Part shown: positions 18,008-52,440 of the stretch, piece by piece
Layout: every line of letters starts with the position of its first letter
Numbering within the stretch: position 1 is the stretch's first letter
Assembly (NCBI GenBank): GCA_002763075.1
Contig: PFDB01000002.1
Coordinates: forward strand, 126,286-189,970
DNA length: 63,685 nt
Reading direction: 5' to 3'
Source: Candidatus Pacearchaeota archaeon CG10_big_fil_rev_8_21_14_0_10_34_76
GTDB lineage: Archaea > Nanobdellota > Nanobdellia > Pacearchaeales > GW2011-AR1
The notes under the pieces: model-generated
Database searches by the model: none
The model's input: only the letters and a program-made list of their open reading frames with translations
Told to the model about the DNA's origin: nothing
Made by a program: the position numbers and the translations under genes

Positions 18008-18014
18008 TCTACAA

Positions 18015-18149
18015 CCCCTCCGCGGTTCTAGGAGTCCGGGTAAGAAGATGACACCCCTCCGCGGTTCTAGGAGTCCGGGTAAGAAGATGACACCCCTCCG
18101 CGGTTCTAGGAGTCCGGGTAAGAAGATGACACCCCTCCGCGGTTCTAGG
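18015..18149. repeat. Tandem 39-bp repeat, 3 full copies + 18 bp
   Basis: cccctccgcggttctaggagtccgggtaagaagatgaca at 18015, 18054, 18093, partial at 18132; degenerate 24-bp relic at 18197-18220. Confidence 0.95.
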
Positions 18150-41114: not shown

Positions 41115-41405
41115 CTAATGAGAATTAGATCTGTCTGTGAGGAAGTAAGAGGCTATTAGCATTAAAAGAAGGCTAAAAATTGTTATGAAAAATGAGGTGA
41201 GGAAACTTAATGTTGCGGTACCTTGAACATTTATGAATCTTATTACAAAAGACTCTACAACGTCAAAGATAGTTTGTCTCCATGTGAATGCGATTGTGAA
41301 TCCAAGAGCCACTATGATTAATAGACGCAACTGCCTACGGAATTCTTTCTTGAAGTTTTCTCCTCCAATGAAGAATGATTTTGCTTTCTTTTTTATTATT
41401 TTCAT
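41115..41405 (-). CDS. DUF5654-like small membrane protein
   Basis: FKKEFRRQLRLLIIVALGFTIAFTWRQTIFDVVESF; two TM. Confidence 0.6.
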   Translation of the reverse strand: MKIIKKKAKSFFIGGENFKKEFRRQLRLLIIVALGFTIAFTWRQTIFDVVESFVIRFINVQGTATLSFLTSFFITIFSLLLMLIASYFLTDRSNSH

Positions 41406-41776
41406 TTTTTCCCTGGTTTATCTGGTGTTTTTGCCCATTTAGAAATAAACATGATACCTATGACGGATATTGCTGTGACTATTATTGCTGTATAAAGATC
41501 TGCAAGATAAGGATATTTTTCTAAAAGCTCACTTGTTTTATGGAAATTTTTGGCTAATTTTGTTATGAGATCTTTCCAAGAAAGCGCTATTATGAAACCA
41601 AACCCTGCCATTATTGCTGTTGATGTGTGCTTTTTGAATTCGGATCCAAATGCAGATCCTCCTTGGAGAACTCTTTTTCTGAGTTTAATTTTTTCTTTTT
41701 GAACTTGTTGTTCAACCTGCTTTTCTACCTCTTTTTTTAGCTCGTCCTGCTGTTTTTTTGTTAAATCTGATGACAT
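41402..41776 (-). CDS. DUF5654-like small membrane protein (paralog)
   Basis: FGSEFKKHTSTAIMAGFGFIIALSWKDLITKLAKNF; same layout as 41115 ORF plus coiled-coil N-terminus. Confidence 0.6.
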   Translation of the reverse strand: MSSDLTKKQQDELKKEVEKQVEQQVQKEKIKLRKRVLQGGSAFGSEFKKHTSTAIMAGFGFIIALSWKDLITKLAKNFHKTSELLEKYPYLADLYTAIIVTAISVIGIMFISKWAKTPDKPGKK

Positions 41777-42185: not shown

Positions 42186-42251
42186 GAAAAAAATTAGGTT
42201 TTTCGGGCGCAATCGGCGCTTCGCGCCTCAATTTATTGAGGTAATTTTTTC
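42186..42251 (+). other. Nested hairpin structure
   Basis: Outer GAAAAAAATTA/TAATTTTTTC; inner GGCGC-TTC-GCGCC and CCTCAA-TTTA-TTGAGG. Confidence 0.65.
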
Positions 42252-42295
42252 TTGATAGGGGGGGACTTATTTTTAAGTATCTGGAGAGTTTTCAA

Positions 42296-42340
42296 GGGTG
42301 TTTTTGGGTGTTTAAGTGGTGTTTAAGTGGTGTTTAAGTG
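42296..42340 (+). repeat. 11-bp direct repeat array 1 (GTGTTTAAGTG x3)
   Basis: GTGTTTAAGTG at 42308, 42319, 42330; shares exact 34-bp block with 42402-42435. Confidence 0.95.
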
Positions 42341-42373
42341 TGTTTTTTTAATTACCCTCGCTGTTTAGGGGTG

Positions 42374-42391
42374 TTTAAACAGCTGTTTAAA
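42374..42391. promoter_or_regulatory. Perfect 18-bp palindrome TTTAAACAGCTGTTTAAA
   Basis: Self-complementary; core AAACAGCTGT(TT) recurs inside the downstream gene. Confidence 0.9.
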
Positions 42392-42401
42392 ATAAATCCT
42401 A

Positions 42402-42435
42402 GGGTGTTTTTGGGTGTTTAAGTGGTGTTTAAGTG
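42402..42435 (+). repeat. 11-bp direct repeat array 2 (GTGTTTAAGTG x2)
   Basis: GTGTTTAAGTG at 42414 and 42425. Confidence 0.95.
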
Positions 42436-42470
42436 TGTTTTTTACTACTTTTTTAGGTAAAATTACGAAA

Positions 42471-42489
42471 GATTTATATACGATAAATC
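42471..42489. promoter_or_regulatory. Inverted repeat overlapping TATA-like box upstream of 42502
   Basis: GATTTAT-atacg-ATAAATC. Confidence 0.5.
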
Positions 42490-42501
42490 ATAGAAATCTA
42501 T

Positions 42502-43140
42502 ATGTTTTGGATATTTAATGGTAAAAAAAGAGTAGAAAATCTTGAAGAAAATACTAAGAGGGGTTTTGAAGAAGTAAAAAAAGATTTTGAAGGTGTTGGT
42601 AAATGGATTAAACACCTAGACAACAGAGATAAACAGCTGTTTGATATTATTCGAGAGATAAAATCAGAATTGTCCTCGATTAATGATGAGGTTGATGGTT
42701 TGAGAGAAGCTCTTTCTTTAATGAATTTTGCCTCTGAGGGCAAACAGCTGTCCAAAAAACAAACAGGTGTTGGTAAACAGATGCCTGTTTATAGTGTTCA
42801 AGAACCTGTCCAAACACCTGTCCAAACAGGCAATTTTCACCAAATTTTGCAGAATTTGAGTGCGAACGAAAGATTGATAGTTCTTACACTTTTGAATGCG
42901 GAAGGAGATATGAAGTTAAGTTATGAGGATATTGCTAAGCTACTCGGAAAAGAGAGATCTACGATTAGAGGGCAAATAAACTCAATAAAACAGAAAAGTG
43001 AGAGTTTAGTATATGAATTAACCGAACCTAATGGGAAGAAAAGAGTGTATATCCCTGAAGAAATTAAAGAAAAACTGCTGAAATACGCGAAAGTGAGAGT
43101 TGGCAATGATAAAAAATCTGAAAAAAAGAGGAAAAAGTGA
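42502..43140 (+). CDS. Coiled-coil + C-terminal winged-helix DNA-binding protein
   Basis: ENLEENTKRGFEEVKKDFEGVGKWIKHLDNRDKQLFDIIREIKSEL; wHTH NERLIVLTLLNAEGDMKLSYEDIAKLLGKERSTIRGQINSIKQK. Confidence 0.75.
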   Translation: MFWIFNGKKRVENLEENTKRGFEEVKKDFEGVGKWIKHLDNRDKQLFDIIREIKSELSSINDEVDGLREALSLMNFASEGKQLSKKQTGVGKQMPVYSVQEPVQTPVQTGNFHQILQNLSANERLIVLTLLNAEGDMKLSYEDIAKLLGKERSTIRGQINSIKQKSESLVYELTEPNGKKRVYIPEEIKEKLLKYAKVRVGNDKKSEKKRKK

Positions 43141-43296
43141 GAGAAAAATGAGAATTTATGGAAAATCTGTAAAAGTGAGTGCTTGGAAGTATGAAAAATT
43201 AGAATTTTTTGATGGAAAAGTGAGTGATATTTTTTATTTTTTGGAAGGAATTGAAAAGTGAGCATAATCATTGTGCAAAAAAATTAAAAAAGTGAG
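42994..43296 (+). repeat. Seven spaced direct repeats (A/G)AAAGTGAG
   Basis: At 42994, 43089 (GAAAGTGAG), 43133, 43171, 43216, 43254, 43288; the last five spaced 34-45 bp. Confidence 0.85.
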
Positions 43297-43434
43297 GAAA
43301 AATTGCCTGTTTGGCGTGCAATTTTTCTGATTAGGTGGGCTGAAATAGCCAAAACCGAGCCCTTTGGGGCTTGAGGGGGCTAAATTTGGATTTAGTGTGA
43401 ACCTTATAATTTATTCGGTATAGCGGATAGTCCA

Positions 43435-44181
43435 TTAGAGTGTTCTGAGTTGGTGGATTGTTTCAAGGGTGACTATTTTTCTGAGATCTTTTGAAATTGA
43501 AAGGGTTATCCTTTTGTTGTTTTCCTTAAGTTTATCGACGGGAATGCCTTTTTTAATGAGTCTTAGAACATAATCTCTGATAGAACTTTCTGTTAATTTG
43601 AGTTTTTCTGAGAGAATTGAATAATCGACGATGAATCCTTGTTCTTCTAGTTCGTATATTGTGCTAAATACTTGCATTTCTTGCGAGGTTAATCTTTTGA
43701 ATTTAAAACGAACTTCTTTCTTTAATTCGTCGAGGGATCCTAGAAGTTCTGATGCTCTGTGTATTTGGGTTAAAATGTGGGGTTTTTCTATGTTTTTTGA
43801 GGTTTTTAATGTATTCTCTTGTATTTCTGGCAGTTTTATGTGTAGTTCTGATGTGTTCAATGGTAGATTTTGAGGATTTTTCTCTGTTTTCCAGTGGAAA
43901 TAGGGGGGTTGTCTGTCTGTCTGTTGGTCTGTCTGTCTGTCTGTCGAAACCCCTTCATTTCCAGTGGAGATTGTTGAAATTTGGCTTTTTACGGCTTCTA
44001 GAGACAAATTATGTGTTGGAGTGTCTGTCTTATGTCTGTTGTCTGTCTGTTTCTTTAGTATTTCTGTCTGAATTTCATTTAATTCTTGTATAGTTCGTTT
44101 TAATTCTTGAAGTTCATAGTATAAGAAATCTATATCTTGTCTTGCATTAGCGAAGGCTTCCTTTATTTTGTCTTCCTGCAT
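43435..44181 (-). CDS. Coiled-coil + winged-helix DNA-binding protein with TDRQ-repeat linker
   Basis: N-term QDIDFLYYELQELKRTIQELNEIQTEILKKQ; linker STDRQTDQQTDRQ; wHTH LTSQEMQVFSTIYELEEQGFIVDYSILSEKLKLTESSIRDYVLRLIKKG. Confidence 0.75.
   Translation of the reverse strand: MQEDKIKEAFANARQDIDFLYYELQELKRTIQELNEIQTEILKKQTDNRHKTDTPTHNLSLEAVKSQISTISTGNEGVSTDRQTDQQTDRQPPYFHWKTEKNPQNLPLNTSELHIKLPEIQENTLKTSKNIEKPHILTQIHRASELLGSLDELKKEVRFKFKRLTSQEMQVFSTIYELEEQGFIVDYSILSEKLKLTESSIRDYVLRLIKKGIPVDKLKENNKRITLSISKDLRKIVTLETIHQLRTL
43887..43910 (+). promoter_or_regulatory. ORB-like element A (Orc1/Cdc6 binding), intragenic
   Basis: ttttccagtggaaataggggggtt: dyad TTCCAGTGGAAA plus G-string, archaeal ORB pattern. 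Confidence 0.6.
43911..43945. repeat. Interrupted (CTGT)n tetranucleotide microsatellite
   Basis: gtctgtctgtctgttggtctgtctgtctgtctgtc in the coding sequence of 43435..44181. Confidence 0.95.
43947..43971 (-). promoter_or_regulatory. ORB-like element B, inverted relative to A
   Basis: Reverse strand tctccactggaaatgaaggggtttc; dyad plus GGGG. Confidence 0.5.
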
Positions 44182-45988: not shown

Positions 45989-48604
45989 ATGCTCAATATG
46001 GCTCGGGAAATAACCTTTATGGAAGAGCCTCATGCTGCTGCTGAAGTTAGAAAGATATTACATCCGCTTGTTGCTGAATGGTTTTTTAGGAAATTTGACG
46101 ACTTTTCGCTGACACAGTTGTATGGGGTGAAGACAATATCTGACAGGAAAAATATACTGATAAGTGCGCCTACTGGAGGGACTAAGACACTTACTGCCTT
46201 TCTTGGAATAATAAATTATGTTGTTGGGTTGGCCTTGAAGAATGAACTTGAAGAAAAAATTTATGCAGTTTATGTTTCACCTTTAAAGGCATTGAGCAAT
46301 GATATTTTTGTGAATTTGGAAGCTCCCCTTAGTGAAATTTACGATCTTGCAAAGGAAAGGGGGCTTGAAATGCAGAATATTAGGGTAGGTGTTAGGACTG
46401 GGGACACTACGGTTTCTGAAAGGGCGAAACATGCTAGAAAAGTTCCCCATATTTATGTCACGACCCCTGAAAGTCTTGCTATAGTACTTACTACAACTAA
46501 ATTTGTAGAGAATCTTTCTGCTTTAGAATTCATTATAGTAGATGAGATTCATGCCATGGCAAATAAAAGGGGCGTATATATGAGCTTAACATTGGAAAGA
46601 CTTTGTGAATTAAGTTTGATTGAACCAGTTCGTATTGGACTTAGTGCGACTATTGCTCCTCTTGAAGATATTGCAAGATTTTTAGTTGGAGAAGGAAGAG
46701 ATTGTCTTATAGCAAGGGTAAAATTAATGAAAAAAATTGATATTGGGTTAATATCTCCTGCAAAAGATTTGATTGAAGCAGATAGCATTCAAAGTCAAAA
46801 GGAATTGTATAAGATTTTAGATGGATTAATACAAGACCATAAAACAACTTTAATTTTCACAAATACGCGGGCTGCAACTGAAAAAATAATACATTATCTT
46901 GATTTGCATTTTCCTGGAAAATATAACGAGTTAATTGGAGCACATCATAGTTCTATGAGCAAAGAAAATAGATTTGAGATAGAAAATAAGCTTAGAAAGG
47001 GGGAATTGAAGGTTGTTGTGACCTCTACTTCGTTAGAGCTTGGCATTGATATTGGAAACGTTGATTTGGTTATATTACTGAGATCTCCGAAAGGAGTTGC
47101 TCGAGCATTACAAAGAATTGGAAGGGCAGGACATAAATTACACAGCAATCCTAAGGGAAGATTTATTGTGACTGACCGAGATGATCTTATTGAATGTGGT
47201 GTGATGATGAAAGGCATGATTGAAAATAAGATAGATAGAGTTGATATTCCTAAAAATGCCTTAGATGTCCTTGCGCAGCAGATATATGGTATGGCAATTT
47301 CTAAAATATGGAGGGCTGAGGATATGCTTAAGATGATACGAAAAAGTTATTGTTATGCTGATTTAAGTGAAGAAGATTTTTTTGCTGTTGTTTCTTATTT
47401 GGCAGGGGATTACGCCTTGGAACACAGACACGTTTATGCAAAAATCTGGTATGATGCAACTAGTGGAGAGATTGGAAAGAGAGGAAAGACTGCTAGGATA
47501 ATTTATATGACTAATATTGGGACTATACCTGAAGAGGGTTTTATTTCTGTGGTTATAAGTGCTCCAGTGGAAAAGAGGGGGCAGATTATTGGCAAGATTG
47601 ATGAAGCCTTCTTGGAGAAGATGAAAAGAGGAGATGTGTTTGTTTTAGGAGGACATAAATATCAATTTATTAGAAGTCAGGGCATGAAGGCTTATGTTAT
47701 TGCAGATGTTTCTAAAAGCCCCACCATACCTTCTTGGTTTAGTGAAATGCTTCCATTAAGTTATGATGTTGCTATTGAAATCGCTAAATTTAGAAGACTT
47801 GTTAAGGAGAAGATAGAAAATAAGAAGAAAACTTTAGATTTTATCAAGGAATATTTGTATTGTGGAGATATTGAAGCAGACCAAATGTATGATTATTTAT
47901 CTGAGCAAGCGAAATTTAGTGAAATCCCTACAGATAAAGAATTGATAGTTGAAAAATTCAAAAGTGATAAAGAATATTTGTTGTTTCATAGTATGTATGG
48001 GAGAAGAGTAAATGATGCTCTTTCTAGGGCGTATGGGTTTGCTGCTGCAAGATTGAAACATAGAGACATTGAAGTAGGAATAAATGATAACGGATTTTAT
48101 CTTGCTGGGGAGAAGCTTGATGAAAATAAAATTTTAGATTGGGTGAAGGCAAAAGACCTTGAATTAATATTAAAAGAGGCTATAGAAACAACTGATGTTT
48201 TAAGAAGAAGATTTAGGCATTGTGCTTCAAGAAGCTTGATGATATTAAGAACCTATAAAGGAAGAAGCAAGACTGTTGGAAAACAACAAATGCATTCTCA
48301 TTTCTTGTTGGCTGCTGTTAGAAAAATAAGTAATGAGTTTCCGATCTTACAAGAAGCAAGGAGAGAGGTATTTGAAGACGTGATGGATATACATCGGGCT
48401 AAGGGAATTTTGAAAGATATAGAGAATGGAAAGATAAAAGTAAAAAAAGTTAGGACGCCATTGGTTTCGCCGTTTGGATTGAATTTAATATTACAAAGTC
48501 ATGCTGATTTAATAAGAATGGAAGAAAAACTGCAATTTTTAAGGAGAATGCATAAACTTCAAATGGGCATTATTGAAAGCAAAGAAGGAAATGGGAAGGA
48601 ATAA
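45989..48604 (+). CDS. lhr: Lhr-like DEAD/DEAH-box helicase
   Basis: ISAPTGGTKTLTAFL; VDEIHAMANKRG; LSATIAP; TSTSLELGIDIGNVDLVILLRSPKGVARALQRIGRAGH. Confidence 0.92.
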   Translation: MLNMAREITFMEEPHAAAEVRKILHPLVAEWFFRKFDDFSLTQLYGVKTISDRKNILISAPTGGTKTLTAFLGIINYVVGLALKNELEEKIYAVYVSPLKALSNDIFVNLEAPLSEIYDLAKERGLEMQNIRVGVRTGDTTVSERAKHARKVPHIYVTTPESLAIVLTTTKFVENLSALEFIIVDEIHAMANKRGVYMSLTLERLCELSLIEPVRIGLSATIAPLEDIARFLVGEGRDCLIARVKLMKKIDIGLISPAKDLIEADSIQSQKELYKILDGLIQDHKTTLIFTNTRAATEKIIHYLDLHFPGKYNELIGAHHSSMSKENRFEIENKLRKGELKVVVTSTSLELGIDIGNVDLVILLRSPKGVARALQRIGRAGHKLHSNPKGRFIVTDRDDLIECGVMMKGMIENKIDRVDIPKNALDVLAQQIYGMAISKIWRAEDMLKMIRKSYCYADLSEEDFFAVVSYLAGDYALEHRHVYAKIWYDATSGEIGKRGKTARIIYMTNIGTIPEEGFISVVISAPVEKRGQIIGKIDEAFLEKMKRGDVFVLGGHKYQFIRSQGMKAYVIADVSKSPTIPSWFSEMLPLSYDVAIEIAKFRRLVKEKIENKKKTLDFIKEYLYCGDIEADQMYDYLSEQAKFSEIPTDKELIVEKFKSDKEYLLFHSMYGRRVNDALSRAYGFAAARLKHRDIEVGINDNGFYLAGEKLDENKILDWVKAKDLELILKEAIETTDVLRRRFRHCASRSLMILRTYKGRSKTVGKQQMHSHFLLAAVRKISNEFPILQEARREVFEDVMDIHRAKGILKDIENGKIKVKKVRTPLVSPFGLNLILQSHADLIRMEEKLQFLRRMHKLQMGIIESKEGNGKE
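47561..47581 (+). promoter_or_regulatory. ORB-like sequence inside lhr (weak candidate)
   Basis: gctccagtggaaaagaggggg. Confidence 0.3.
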
Positions 48605-50708: not shown

Positions 50709-51108
50709 ACCCTCACCCTATCATTTCCACTGGAAAAATCATAAAGGTTTAAATATAGAGGAGGAAATTCATTTCTTCTTCTTTTCTTTTATAAATATAT
50801 ATATATTATATTATATATATTATATTATTAATATTTAAATAGTATATATTAAAACAAAGCATATCAAAGTATTATATATTAAAATGACCAATATTAAAAT
50901 CCTATGACTTTTGATATTAATAGTTCTTTAATCTCTTATTTTAAAATTTTAAATATTAAACTTTTATAGCATTTCATTAAATGATTTATTTACTCTATTT
51001 AACATTTTTATTAAGATTTTAGTGTGGTTGTTCGTTAATGTTCGTTTAACGCAACAATAATATATTTAATTAAACAGAGACTCCAGTGGAAACGGGGGTG
51101 TGTGTGTT
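50709..51108. other. Predicted chromosomal replication origin (oriC): inverted ORBs around AT-rich duplex-unwinding region
   Basis: Left ORB (reverse strand) gatttttccagtggaaatgatagggtgagggtg; right ORB ctccagtggaaacgggggtgtgtg; AT tracts 50789-50900; directly upstream of orc1/cdc6. Confidence 0.85.
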
Positions 51109-51231: not shown

Positions 51232-52440
51232 ATGACGGTCAAATTAAATAAAATATTCGATTCTATAGCTGGAAATATAATTTTTCGTGATAAAAGTGTT
51301 TTGCAAATAAACCATACGCCTGGATCGATACCACATAGAGATGAACAAATCGAAGCAGTTGCGTCTATATTGGCGCCTTCGCTAAGGGGAGATAGAGTAA
51401 GTAATTTATTTGTTTATGGAAAGACTGGAACTGGAAAGACACTATGTGTGCAATATGTAACAAATGAAATAAGCAAAAGGGTAAAGGAAACCGGAGAGGA
51501 CGTCTTAAAGGTAATATATGTTAATTGTAAGTTGAAAAAGGTAGCTGATACAGAATATAGGATATTAGCTGAAATAATAAATCGACTAGGGGGAAGTGTC
51601 CCAGCGACAGGCCTTCCCACAGATAGCGTTTATAATAAGTTTATTGAATTAATTGATGGGAAGAAACAAGTAATATTAATTGTTTTGGATGAAATAGACC
51701 AGGCTGTAAAGAAAATATCTGATAGTTTTCTCTATACCCTAACAAGATTGAATTCGGAGCTGAAAAATGCACAAATAAGTATTGTCGGAATAAGTAACAG
51801 CTTAACATTTATGGATGAACTAGATCCAAGAGTTAGAAGTTCGCTTGGAGAGGAAGAACTTGTATTTCCTCCATATAATGCATTACAATTGCAAGAAATA
51901 TTAAAGAAAAGAGCAAGTGAGGCCTTTAATGAAGGCATTTTAAGTGAGGGGGTTATAGCAAAGTGTGCTGCCTTTGCAGCAAGAGAACATGGGGATGCAA
52001 GAAGAGCTCTTGATTTGTTGAGGGTTGCTGGAGAATTAGCAGAAAGGTCGGGAATAAAAAAATTGGATGTTGTTAGAATCGACGAAGCAAATAGTAAAAT
52101 AGAAAAAGATAAAATGCTAGATATTATAGAAAGTGAGCCTAAACAGTTTCAACTTGTACTCTTTGCTATTATGAGTCTGAGCCAAGATGAAAAAATGAAT
52201 AAGATCTTTACTGGAGATATTTATAATAAATATGAAGAAATATGCAGAAAGACAAAGAACGAGGCACTTACACAAAGGAGAGTGTCAGATATCGTTGCTG
52301 AGTTTGATATGTTAGGATTAATAAATGCTAAGGTGGTTAGCAAGGGAAGACAAGGACGAACGAGAGAAATAAAATTGATGCTTCCTGAAAATGTTCGCAA
52401 TAAGGCAAGAGAAATATTGATAGAATCATTGAATTTATGA
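51232..52440 (+). CDS. cdc6: Orc1/Cdc6 replication initiator (AAA+ with C-terminal wHTH)
   Basis: FVYGKTGTGKTLCVQYV; VLDEIDQAV; AAREHGDARRALDLLRVAGELAE. Confidence 0.95.
   Translation: MTVKLNKIFDSIAGNIIFRDKSVLQINHTPGSIPHRDEQIEAVASILAPSLRGDRVSNLFVYGKTGTGKTLCVQYVTNEISKRVKETGEDVLKVIYVNCKLKKVADTEYRILAEIINRLGGSVPATGLPTDSVYNKFIELIDGKKQVILIVLDEIDQAVKKISDSFLYTLTRLNSELKNAQISIVGISNSLTFMDELDPRVRSSLGEEELVFPPYNALQLQEILKKRASEAFNEGILSEGVIAKCAAFAAREHGDARRALDLLRVAGELAERSGIKKLDVVRIDEANSKIEKDKMLDIIESEPKQFQLVLFAIMSLSQDEKMNKIFTGDIYNKYEEICRKTKNEALTQRRVSDIVAEFDMLGLINAKVVSKGRQGRTREIKLMLPENVRNKAREILIESLNL

Follow-up and report, generated by a model that had tools for sequence, protein, structure and literature searches.

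In Candidatus Pacearchaeota the genes P1 and P2 form a convergent, single-copy pair which, on balance, probably constitutes an accessory element of the chromosomal replication origin together with two dedicated, predicted origin-binding proteins, acting in initiation or in its control. The locus points to a component, so far unrecognised, of the apparatus by which chromosome copying is started or managed and, besides boxes (ORBs) for the initiator Orc1, it carries a second set of sites that are most likely bound by P1 and P2 themselves. Experimentally studied archaeal origins come from few culturable groups, and our search of the literature returned no paper describing an origin from Pacearchaeota. 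The question of whether more divergent archaea possess accessory origin proteins of their own was posed as an open one in 2025, and the present finding bears upon it (PMC12141716). A class-wide, origin-linked gene pair with initiator sites in coding DNA would, if true, represent a new origin architecture, and such origins would become findable: a published origin-prediction tool scans intergenic DNA only (PMC4164010), and scanning of this kind misses the best ORB of the locus. Furthermore, the linkers of P2 and P1 are a clear case of coding sequence that is kept for a function at the level of the DNA while the encoded peptide drifts.

The window, by which we mean the whole stretch of 63,685 nucleotides analysed, is part of a contig of 190 kb, from an archaeal genome of 914 kb that encodes orc1/cdc6 and both subunits of DNA polymerase D. 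The three genes of principal concern are:

42502..43140, plus strand: P1 gene, 212 aa (AlphaFold model; present in 46/55 relatives)
43435..44181, minus strand: P2 gene, 248 aa (AlphaFold model; present in 46/55 relatives; class-wide)
51232..52440, plus strand: orc1/cdc6 initiator gene (Pfam Cdc6_C, 1.8e-26)

In the relatives that carry them, P1 and P2 are nearly always present in one copy and adjacent to one another, and the relatives without them include incomplete assemblies; the genomes compared are mostly metagenome bins, and most of the named relatives carry the label Candidatus Pacearchaeota or Nanoarchaeota. P2 lies beside P1 in 74 of the 80 named loci, and in all 38 of the 38 loci with orc1 in reach this gene shares the strand of P1 and lies downstream. 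The commonest compact order reads P1 > < P2, some 1.3-2 kb, orc1 >. Across the class P2 and orc1 are divergent in 42/46 placed pairs (median gap 6.9 kb), a count which leaves out genomes with the two genes on different contigs; the distance between them is usually 1.5-15 kb, with a range of 1.3-16 kb and two outliers at approximately 32 kb, and in many genomes unrelated genes lie in between. Because the pair persists in other orders of the class, mostly still near orc1, it is vertically inherited and not a captured plasmid. Four genomes of one family (f43) are without P2 and the canonical Orc1 and have kept P1, their sole Orc-like protein being 30% identical to canonical Orc1; this joint loss of P2 and canonical orc1, which was seen in one clade, fits a link to the origin and is no more than suggestive of it. 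In this family (L264, L270-L272) P1 keeps dense TTCATGAACGTTCAA iterons though P2, the ORBs and canonical orc1 are absent. Two neighbouring DUF5654 proteins are encoded upstream of P1 on the opposite strand (window 41115-41776).

In the AlphaFold models each protein has a helix at its N-terminus and a winged helix towards its C-terminus, joined by a linker modelled at low confidence, in support of the order of coiled coil, linker and C-terminal winged helix-turn-helix that had been put forward in an earlier note on this DNA, made from the sequence alone. P1 consists of a coiled coil (5-77), a disordered linker (78-110), a winged helix (112-183) and a basic C-terminal helix, and P2 of a coiled coil (2-47), a long disordered linker and a winged helix (135-236). 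The nearest solved folds returned by Foldseek are generic MarR-like winged helices, a likeness of structure only, with query-normalised TM scores of about 0.25-0.4. No Pfam or NCBIfam family, MarR-type included, was matched above its curated cut-off, and hence no characterised transcription-factor family of the kind that the earlier note had weighed against its own proposal; searches with P1 and P2 of PHROGs and of PDB sequences gave no convincing and no significant match, respectively. No known protein family appears to fit P1 or P2. Their profiles do match each other's families weakly (~1e-4 to 1e-7) and, given this cross-recognition, the two proteins are probably paralogs.

The repeats upstream of P1, within it and between it and the wing-coding part of P2 are as follows:

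42298..42348, plus strand: upstream array 1, 11-bp direct repeats GGTGTTTAAGT (repeat search; repeats within 42307-42345)
42374..42391, unstranded: perfect 18-bp palindrome TTTAAACAGCTGTTTAAA, a P1-type iteron, motif A (sequence)
42401..42443, plus strand: upstream array 2, 11-bp repeats (repeat search; repeats within 42401-42440)
42631..42642, plus strand: motif A copy in the coil-coding part of P1 (exact)
42733..42831, plus strand: P1 linker-coding DNA with motif A variants at 42742, 42761 and 42812, in units of ~12 bp
42994..43296, plus strand: motif C repeats AAAAGTGAG, from the 3' half of P1 through the intergenic gap (conserved in relatives)
43411..43419, plus strand: motif D TTATTCGGT, at the P2 end of the intergenic gap (sequence)
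43531..43544, plus strand: motif E TTTATCGACGGGAA, in the wing-coding part of P2 (sequence)

The 11-bp direct repeats, the perfect palindrome and the motif copies in the first gene, all of which the earlier note had listed, are thus present in the sequence, the last as one exact copy (at 42631) and the three variants. Its seven repeats after the first gene are a fair count, made up of six exact copies of AAAAGTGAG (1.23 expected) and a near copy at 43089, though the first three copies lie in or overlap P1. GTGTTTAAG occurs six times in the window, where 0.73 copies are expected, and five of these are at the P1-P2 locus. The relatives, in which the earlier note had proposed to look for the repeats, conserve them: there are 76 copies of GGTGTTTAA upstream of P1 (0.24 expected), 114 of AAACAGCTG likewise upstream of P1 (1.5 expected) and 28 of ACCGAATAA in intergenic DNA (0.13 expected), and the k-mer enrichments at the locus hold over the 80 named relatives. 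A CGTCG/CGACG element is embedded in both the P1 and P2 genes. Motif A as a genome-wide motif was rejected, since exact AAACAGCTGTTT is confined to this locus; the pattern also permits one AAACACGTGTTT elsewhere. At a loose threshold of two mismatches the window count (16 against 13.2 expected) is not above chance, and the support for the motif lies in its exact copies, their clustering and the relatives, not in this loose count.

The sites within P1 change with lineage. In the P1 linkers of relatives the same DNA word, AAACAGSTGTTT, is read in two frames, encoding Q-T-x-V in one and K-Q-[LV]-F in the other, and the P1 linkers of other families hold arrays of CGTTCA/TGAACG, 6-12 per linker where at most 0.07 are expected; the palindromic iterons in P1 are lineage-specific. 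A cluster of hairpins that had been pointed out earlier is visible in the window at ~42208-42245 (GGCGCTTCGCGCC, CCTCAATTTATTGAGG), but it could not be made out in the upstream DNA inspected from relatives. In several relatives, among them L006, L007, L013, L015, L021 and L028, a CACTTAGGTTAGCTTAGTT-type element recurs a few hundred bases ahead of P1; it was not noticed in the window. The window also holds a perfect, GC-rich tandem repeat of 39 bp x 3.5 (ACCCCTCCGCGGTTCTAGGAGTCCGGGTAAGAAGATGAC) at 18014-18149, unlike its AT-rich surroundings.

In P2, the linker-coding DNA (~43780-44040) holds an inverted pair of ORBs and a short tandem array:

43890..43908, plus strand: ORB copy 1 TCCAGTGGAAATAGGGGGG (exact; second copy, not general in relatives)
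43909..43949, minus strand: tetranucleotide (CAGA/TGTC) array between the two P2 ORBs
43950..43968, minus strand: ORB copy 2 TCCACTGGAAATGAAGGGG (exact; the copy conserved across the class)

Both copies of this pair, which the earlier note had described as ORB-like, are exact, and its further statement that repeat DNA falls in the linker-coding segment of both genes also holds, with additional P1-type sites upstream of P1 and in its coil-coding part. A common archaeal ORB consensus has been published and copy 2 matches it exactly (PMC4164010). Five ORB matches were found in the window, where 0.15 are expected, and in the whole 914-kb genome the same five are the only matches, all between P2 and orc1, with a control returning 0. 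An ORB of the TCCACTGGAAATGAAGGGGT type lies inside P2 in 69/74 loci, and a scan of the loci placed 71 ORBs in P2, one between P2 and orc1 and four in 1.0 Mb of other DNA. A further exact match, at window 47563-47581, is inside a Lhr-type helicase gene between P2 and orc1.

Directly after the P2 ORB most lineages carry a 4-bp tandem array, (CANN)n, seen as a period of four immediately following the box (lag-4 match 0.70 vs 0.31); in the 914-kb genome of the window such an array is found at no other place. The unit differs by lineage, being CAGA, CACT (L267, L268, L275, L276), CACG (L266) or CAAT (L273, L281, L263), and in the other orders the ORB is kept while the unit (CACT, CACG, CAAT) and with it the peptide (LTHS, THAR, NQSI) are replaced. 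The array was not seen in several distant loci (L265, L269, L277-L279) and so it is common, not universal.

Among 54 P2 sequences, at most 60% identical to one another, Ser72 is TCC in 54/54 (background 7%), Gly77, the second glycine, is GGG in 53/54 (background 21%) and Asp81 is GAC in 48/49 (background 22%); at the motif E site V215 is GTC in 23/24 (background 11%). Control columns in the winged helix are mostly ordinary mixtures of codons and a few are biased, for example the final serine of the P1 stretch, an AGT codon overlapped by motif C. When the same 36 loci are compared, 10% of P2 columns are biased at 1e-10 vs 0.6% of orc1 columns, the orc1 control having been run on matched loci since the 60%-identity filter had left one orc1 sequence. 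The p-values ignore phylogeny, an effect which is kept in check by the restriction to sequences of at most 60% identity and by control columns that drift. Conservation of the linker at the level of the peptide was rejected in view of this codon invariance and of the unrelated peptides encoded by the same DNA layout. The linker-coding DNA of both P1 and P2 is under selection independently of the peptide.

Upstream of orc1 there is a second, intergenic arrangement of ORBs:

50716..50734, minus strand: orc1-adjacent ORB, distal arm of the conventional origin (counterparts in relatives)
50790..50851, unstranded: AT-rich island, putative unwinding element (between the orc1-adjacent ORBs)
51082..51100, plus strand: orc1-adjacent ORB, proximal arm

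An inverted ORB pair is found upstream of orc1 in 22/36 relatives, and the DNA upstream of orc1 in relatives gave 90 weaker ORB matches above 8 bits in 57 kb vs 5 in 227 kb. These orc1-adjacent ORBs are without tetrads (lag-4 0.35), and the ORB/AT-island/ORB arrangement appears to be the conventional unwinding site. The idea that the P2 ORB is the sole ORB was dropped when a position-weight scan found the weaker inverted pairs upstream of orc1; given this pair and the AT-rich island, the P2 ORB would be an additional, accessory site. The position-weight matrix was built from P2 sites, so that the higher score of P2 is partly circular, whereas its exact match to the published ORB consensus does not rest on the P2-trained matrix. 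Since a conventional origin lies by orc1 and P2 is 1.3-16 kb away, in many genomes with genes intervening, the P2 site need not keep a fixed spacing for unwinding.

The GC skew at fourfold sites switches at the locus in two relatives, a signal that the earlier note had suggested looking for. In G002 the switch falls at 311 kb, with P1 at 312 kb, and in G181, for which 400 of 535 kb were used, at 300-302 kb, with P1 at 299 kb and orc1 at 302 kb; in both, the opposite switch is approximately half a chromosome away. The resolution of 15-44 kb (305-320 kb; 280-324 kb) is too coarse to tell P2 and orc1 apart. The switch at the origin locus is of opposite sign in these two genomes (L283-L302 of G181, L157-L182 of G002), which belong to the same family. 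Skew in G011 and G044 was uninformative and the window itself shows no switch. That the locus lies at the chromosomal origin is supported, but that it is a fully separate second one is not, as the ORB pair beside orc1 is found in this region too; the reading of the locus as an origin is, at the level of sequence, largely supported.

The place of the pair, its linkage to orc1, the selection acting on its DNA and the change of its sites from lineage to lineage can be read directly from the genomes, and we propose the following on that footing. P1 and P2 would be paralogous origin-binding proteins whose own genes double as part of the origin. Orc1 would bind the P2 ORB, and P1 and P2, as coiled-coil dimers, would bind the iterons and perhaps the tetrads, respectively, each also repressing its own gene. 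The resulting nucleoprotein complex, beside the unwinding region, may help to recruit, position or limit Orc1 and so control initiation. Placing the sites in DNA that encodes disordered linkers would cost the proteins little and would keep each protein tied to its own sites.

The main rival, which we judge rather unlikely, is a centromere-like locus for segregation or chromosome organisation, where P1 and P2 would bind the near-origin arrays as adaptors in the manner of AspA, SegB or ParB; the complex would be moved or tethered after replication and the ORB would couple segregation to Orc1. AspA indeed shows the pattern of a winged-helix dimer that binds a palindrome ahead of its gene (PMC5120986), a distance from the origin that varies on the kilobase scale is more fitting for a centromere than for an unwinding site, and the sites at the P1-P2 locus are local and not genome-wide. 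Such a role is, however, harder to reconcile with an Orc1 box as the most conserved element and with the joint absence of P2 and canonical orc1 in f43, and no ATPase of the ParA/SegA type is among the 15 window proteins scanned, a scan outside which the small ORFs fell.

It is unlikely that the ORB and (CANN)n of P2 do in archaea what the box and trios of the unwinding system do in bacteria, in which case Orc1 (or P2) would dock at the box, assemble along the tetrads and open or mark the DNA, the repeat unit staying inside the coding sequence and co-evolving with the protein of the lineage concerned; the AT-rich site is not here but upstream of orc1. Titration of Orc1, which is a sub-case of the accessory-origin explanation and in itself quite unlikely, would have the strong P2 ORB soak up Orc1 and delay re-initiation, with P1 and P2 as modulators. 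Titration has been proposed for haloarchaeal ORB clusters, which provides a precedent (PMC4010727), and also for datA of E. coli; that the distal P2 ORB resembles the published consensus more closely than do the two ORBs beside orc1 would suit a sink, but one ORB per locus, as in most genomes, makes a weak one and leaves the tetrads and the P1 iterons unexplained. We are very doubtful of simple autoregulation, by which P1 and P2 would be ordinary transcription regulators, the repeats their operators and the linkage to orc1 mere neighbourhood: iterons upstream of P1 and MarR-like winged helices are what it would predict, yet P2 holds its ORB and tetrads hundreds of bases within the gene, one and the same DNA layout is retained by lineages that differ in peptide and the orientation relative to orc1 is class-wide. 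Capture of a plasmid or virus initiator or partition system, which the earlier note had entertained and which the iterons and initiator-like layout, reminiscent of plasmids and phage lambda, would recall, is highly improbable for an orc1-linked pair that is single copy, occupies the same place in most of the order, is present across the class and has viral fold matches that are generic only.

The accessory origin element that we favour can be set beside several known systems. It shares with the Orc1-type origin (oriC1 with ORBs; Sulfolobus, Pyrococcus) the adjacency to orc1, the ORB consensus (PMC4164010) and the two inverted ORBs that flank an AT-rich island upstream of orc1, and differs from it in the extra, best-consensus ORB inside a coding gene, followed by a tetranucleotide array. 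UBP and the ucm motif of the Sulfolobales likewise combine a lineage-specific accessory protein, its own motif and an Orc1 origin, but UBP is a protein of 111 aa with more than 300 chromosomal sites (PMC12141716), whereas P1 and P2 are coiled-coil winged-helix proteins with local repeats inside their own genes. WhiP at oriC3 of Sulfolobus is also a winged-helix protein encoded beside an origin, though that origin has no ORBs and needs WhiP, not Orc1 (PMC4010727); P1 and P2 gave no WhiP match in the libraries searched by sequence (Pfam, NCBIfam, PHROGs, PDB). The AspA-ParB-ParA system of pNOB8 and SegAB also pair a DNA-binding protein, a winged helix for AspA, with palindromes upstream of its gene (PMC5120986); the present locus is chromosomal, has sites in coding DNA too and has no ParA-type partner seen nearby. 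In the bacterial basal unwinding system of DnaA boxes and DnaA-trios an initiator box is, as here, directly followed by short tandem repeats (PMC8287927), but here Orc1 and the ORB take the place of DnaA and its box, the repeats are of 4 bp and not 3 bp (GAT) and the unit varies between lineages. Finally, phage lambda O and ori-lambda, to which the earlier note had likened the layout, are a fair precedent for a protein whose own gene contains the inverted-repeat iterons to which it binds (PMC5043065), binding being predicted for P1 and P2; the present system differs in being cellular, in single copy on the chromosome instead of on a separate mobile replicon, and in joining two paralogous proteins to a box for a third, Orc1.
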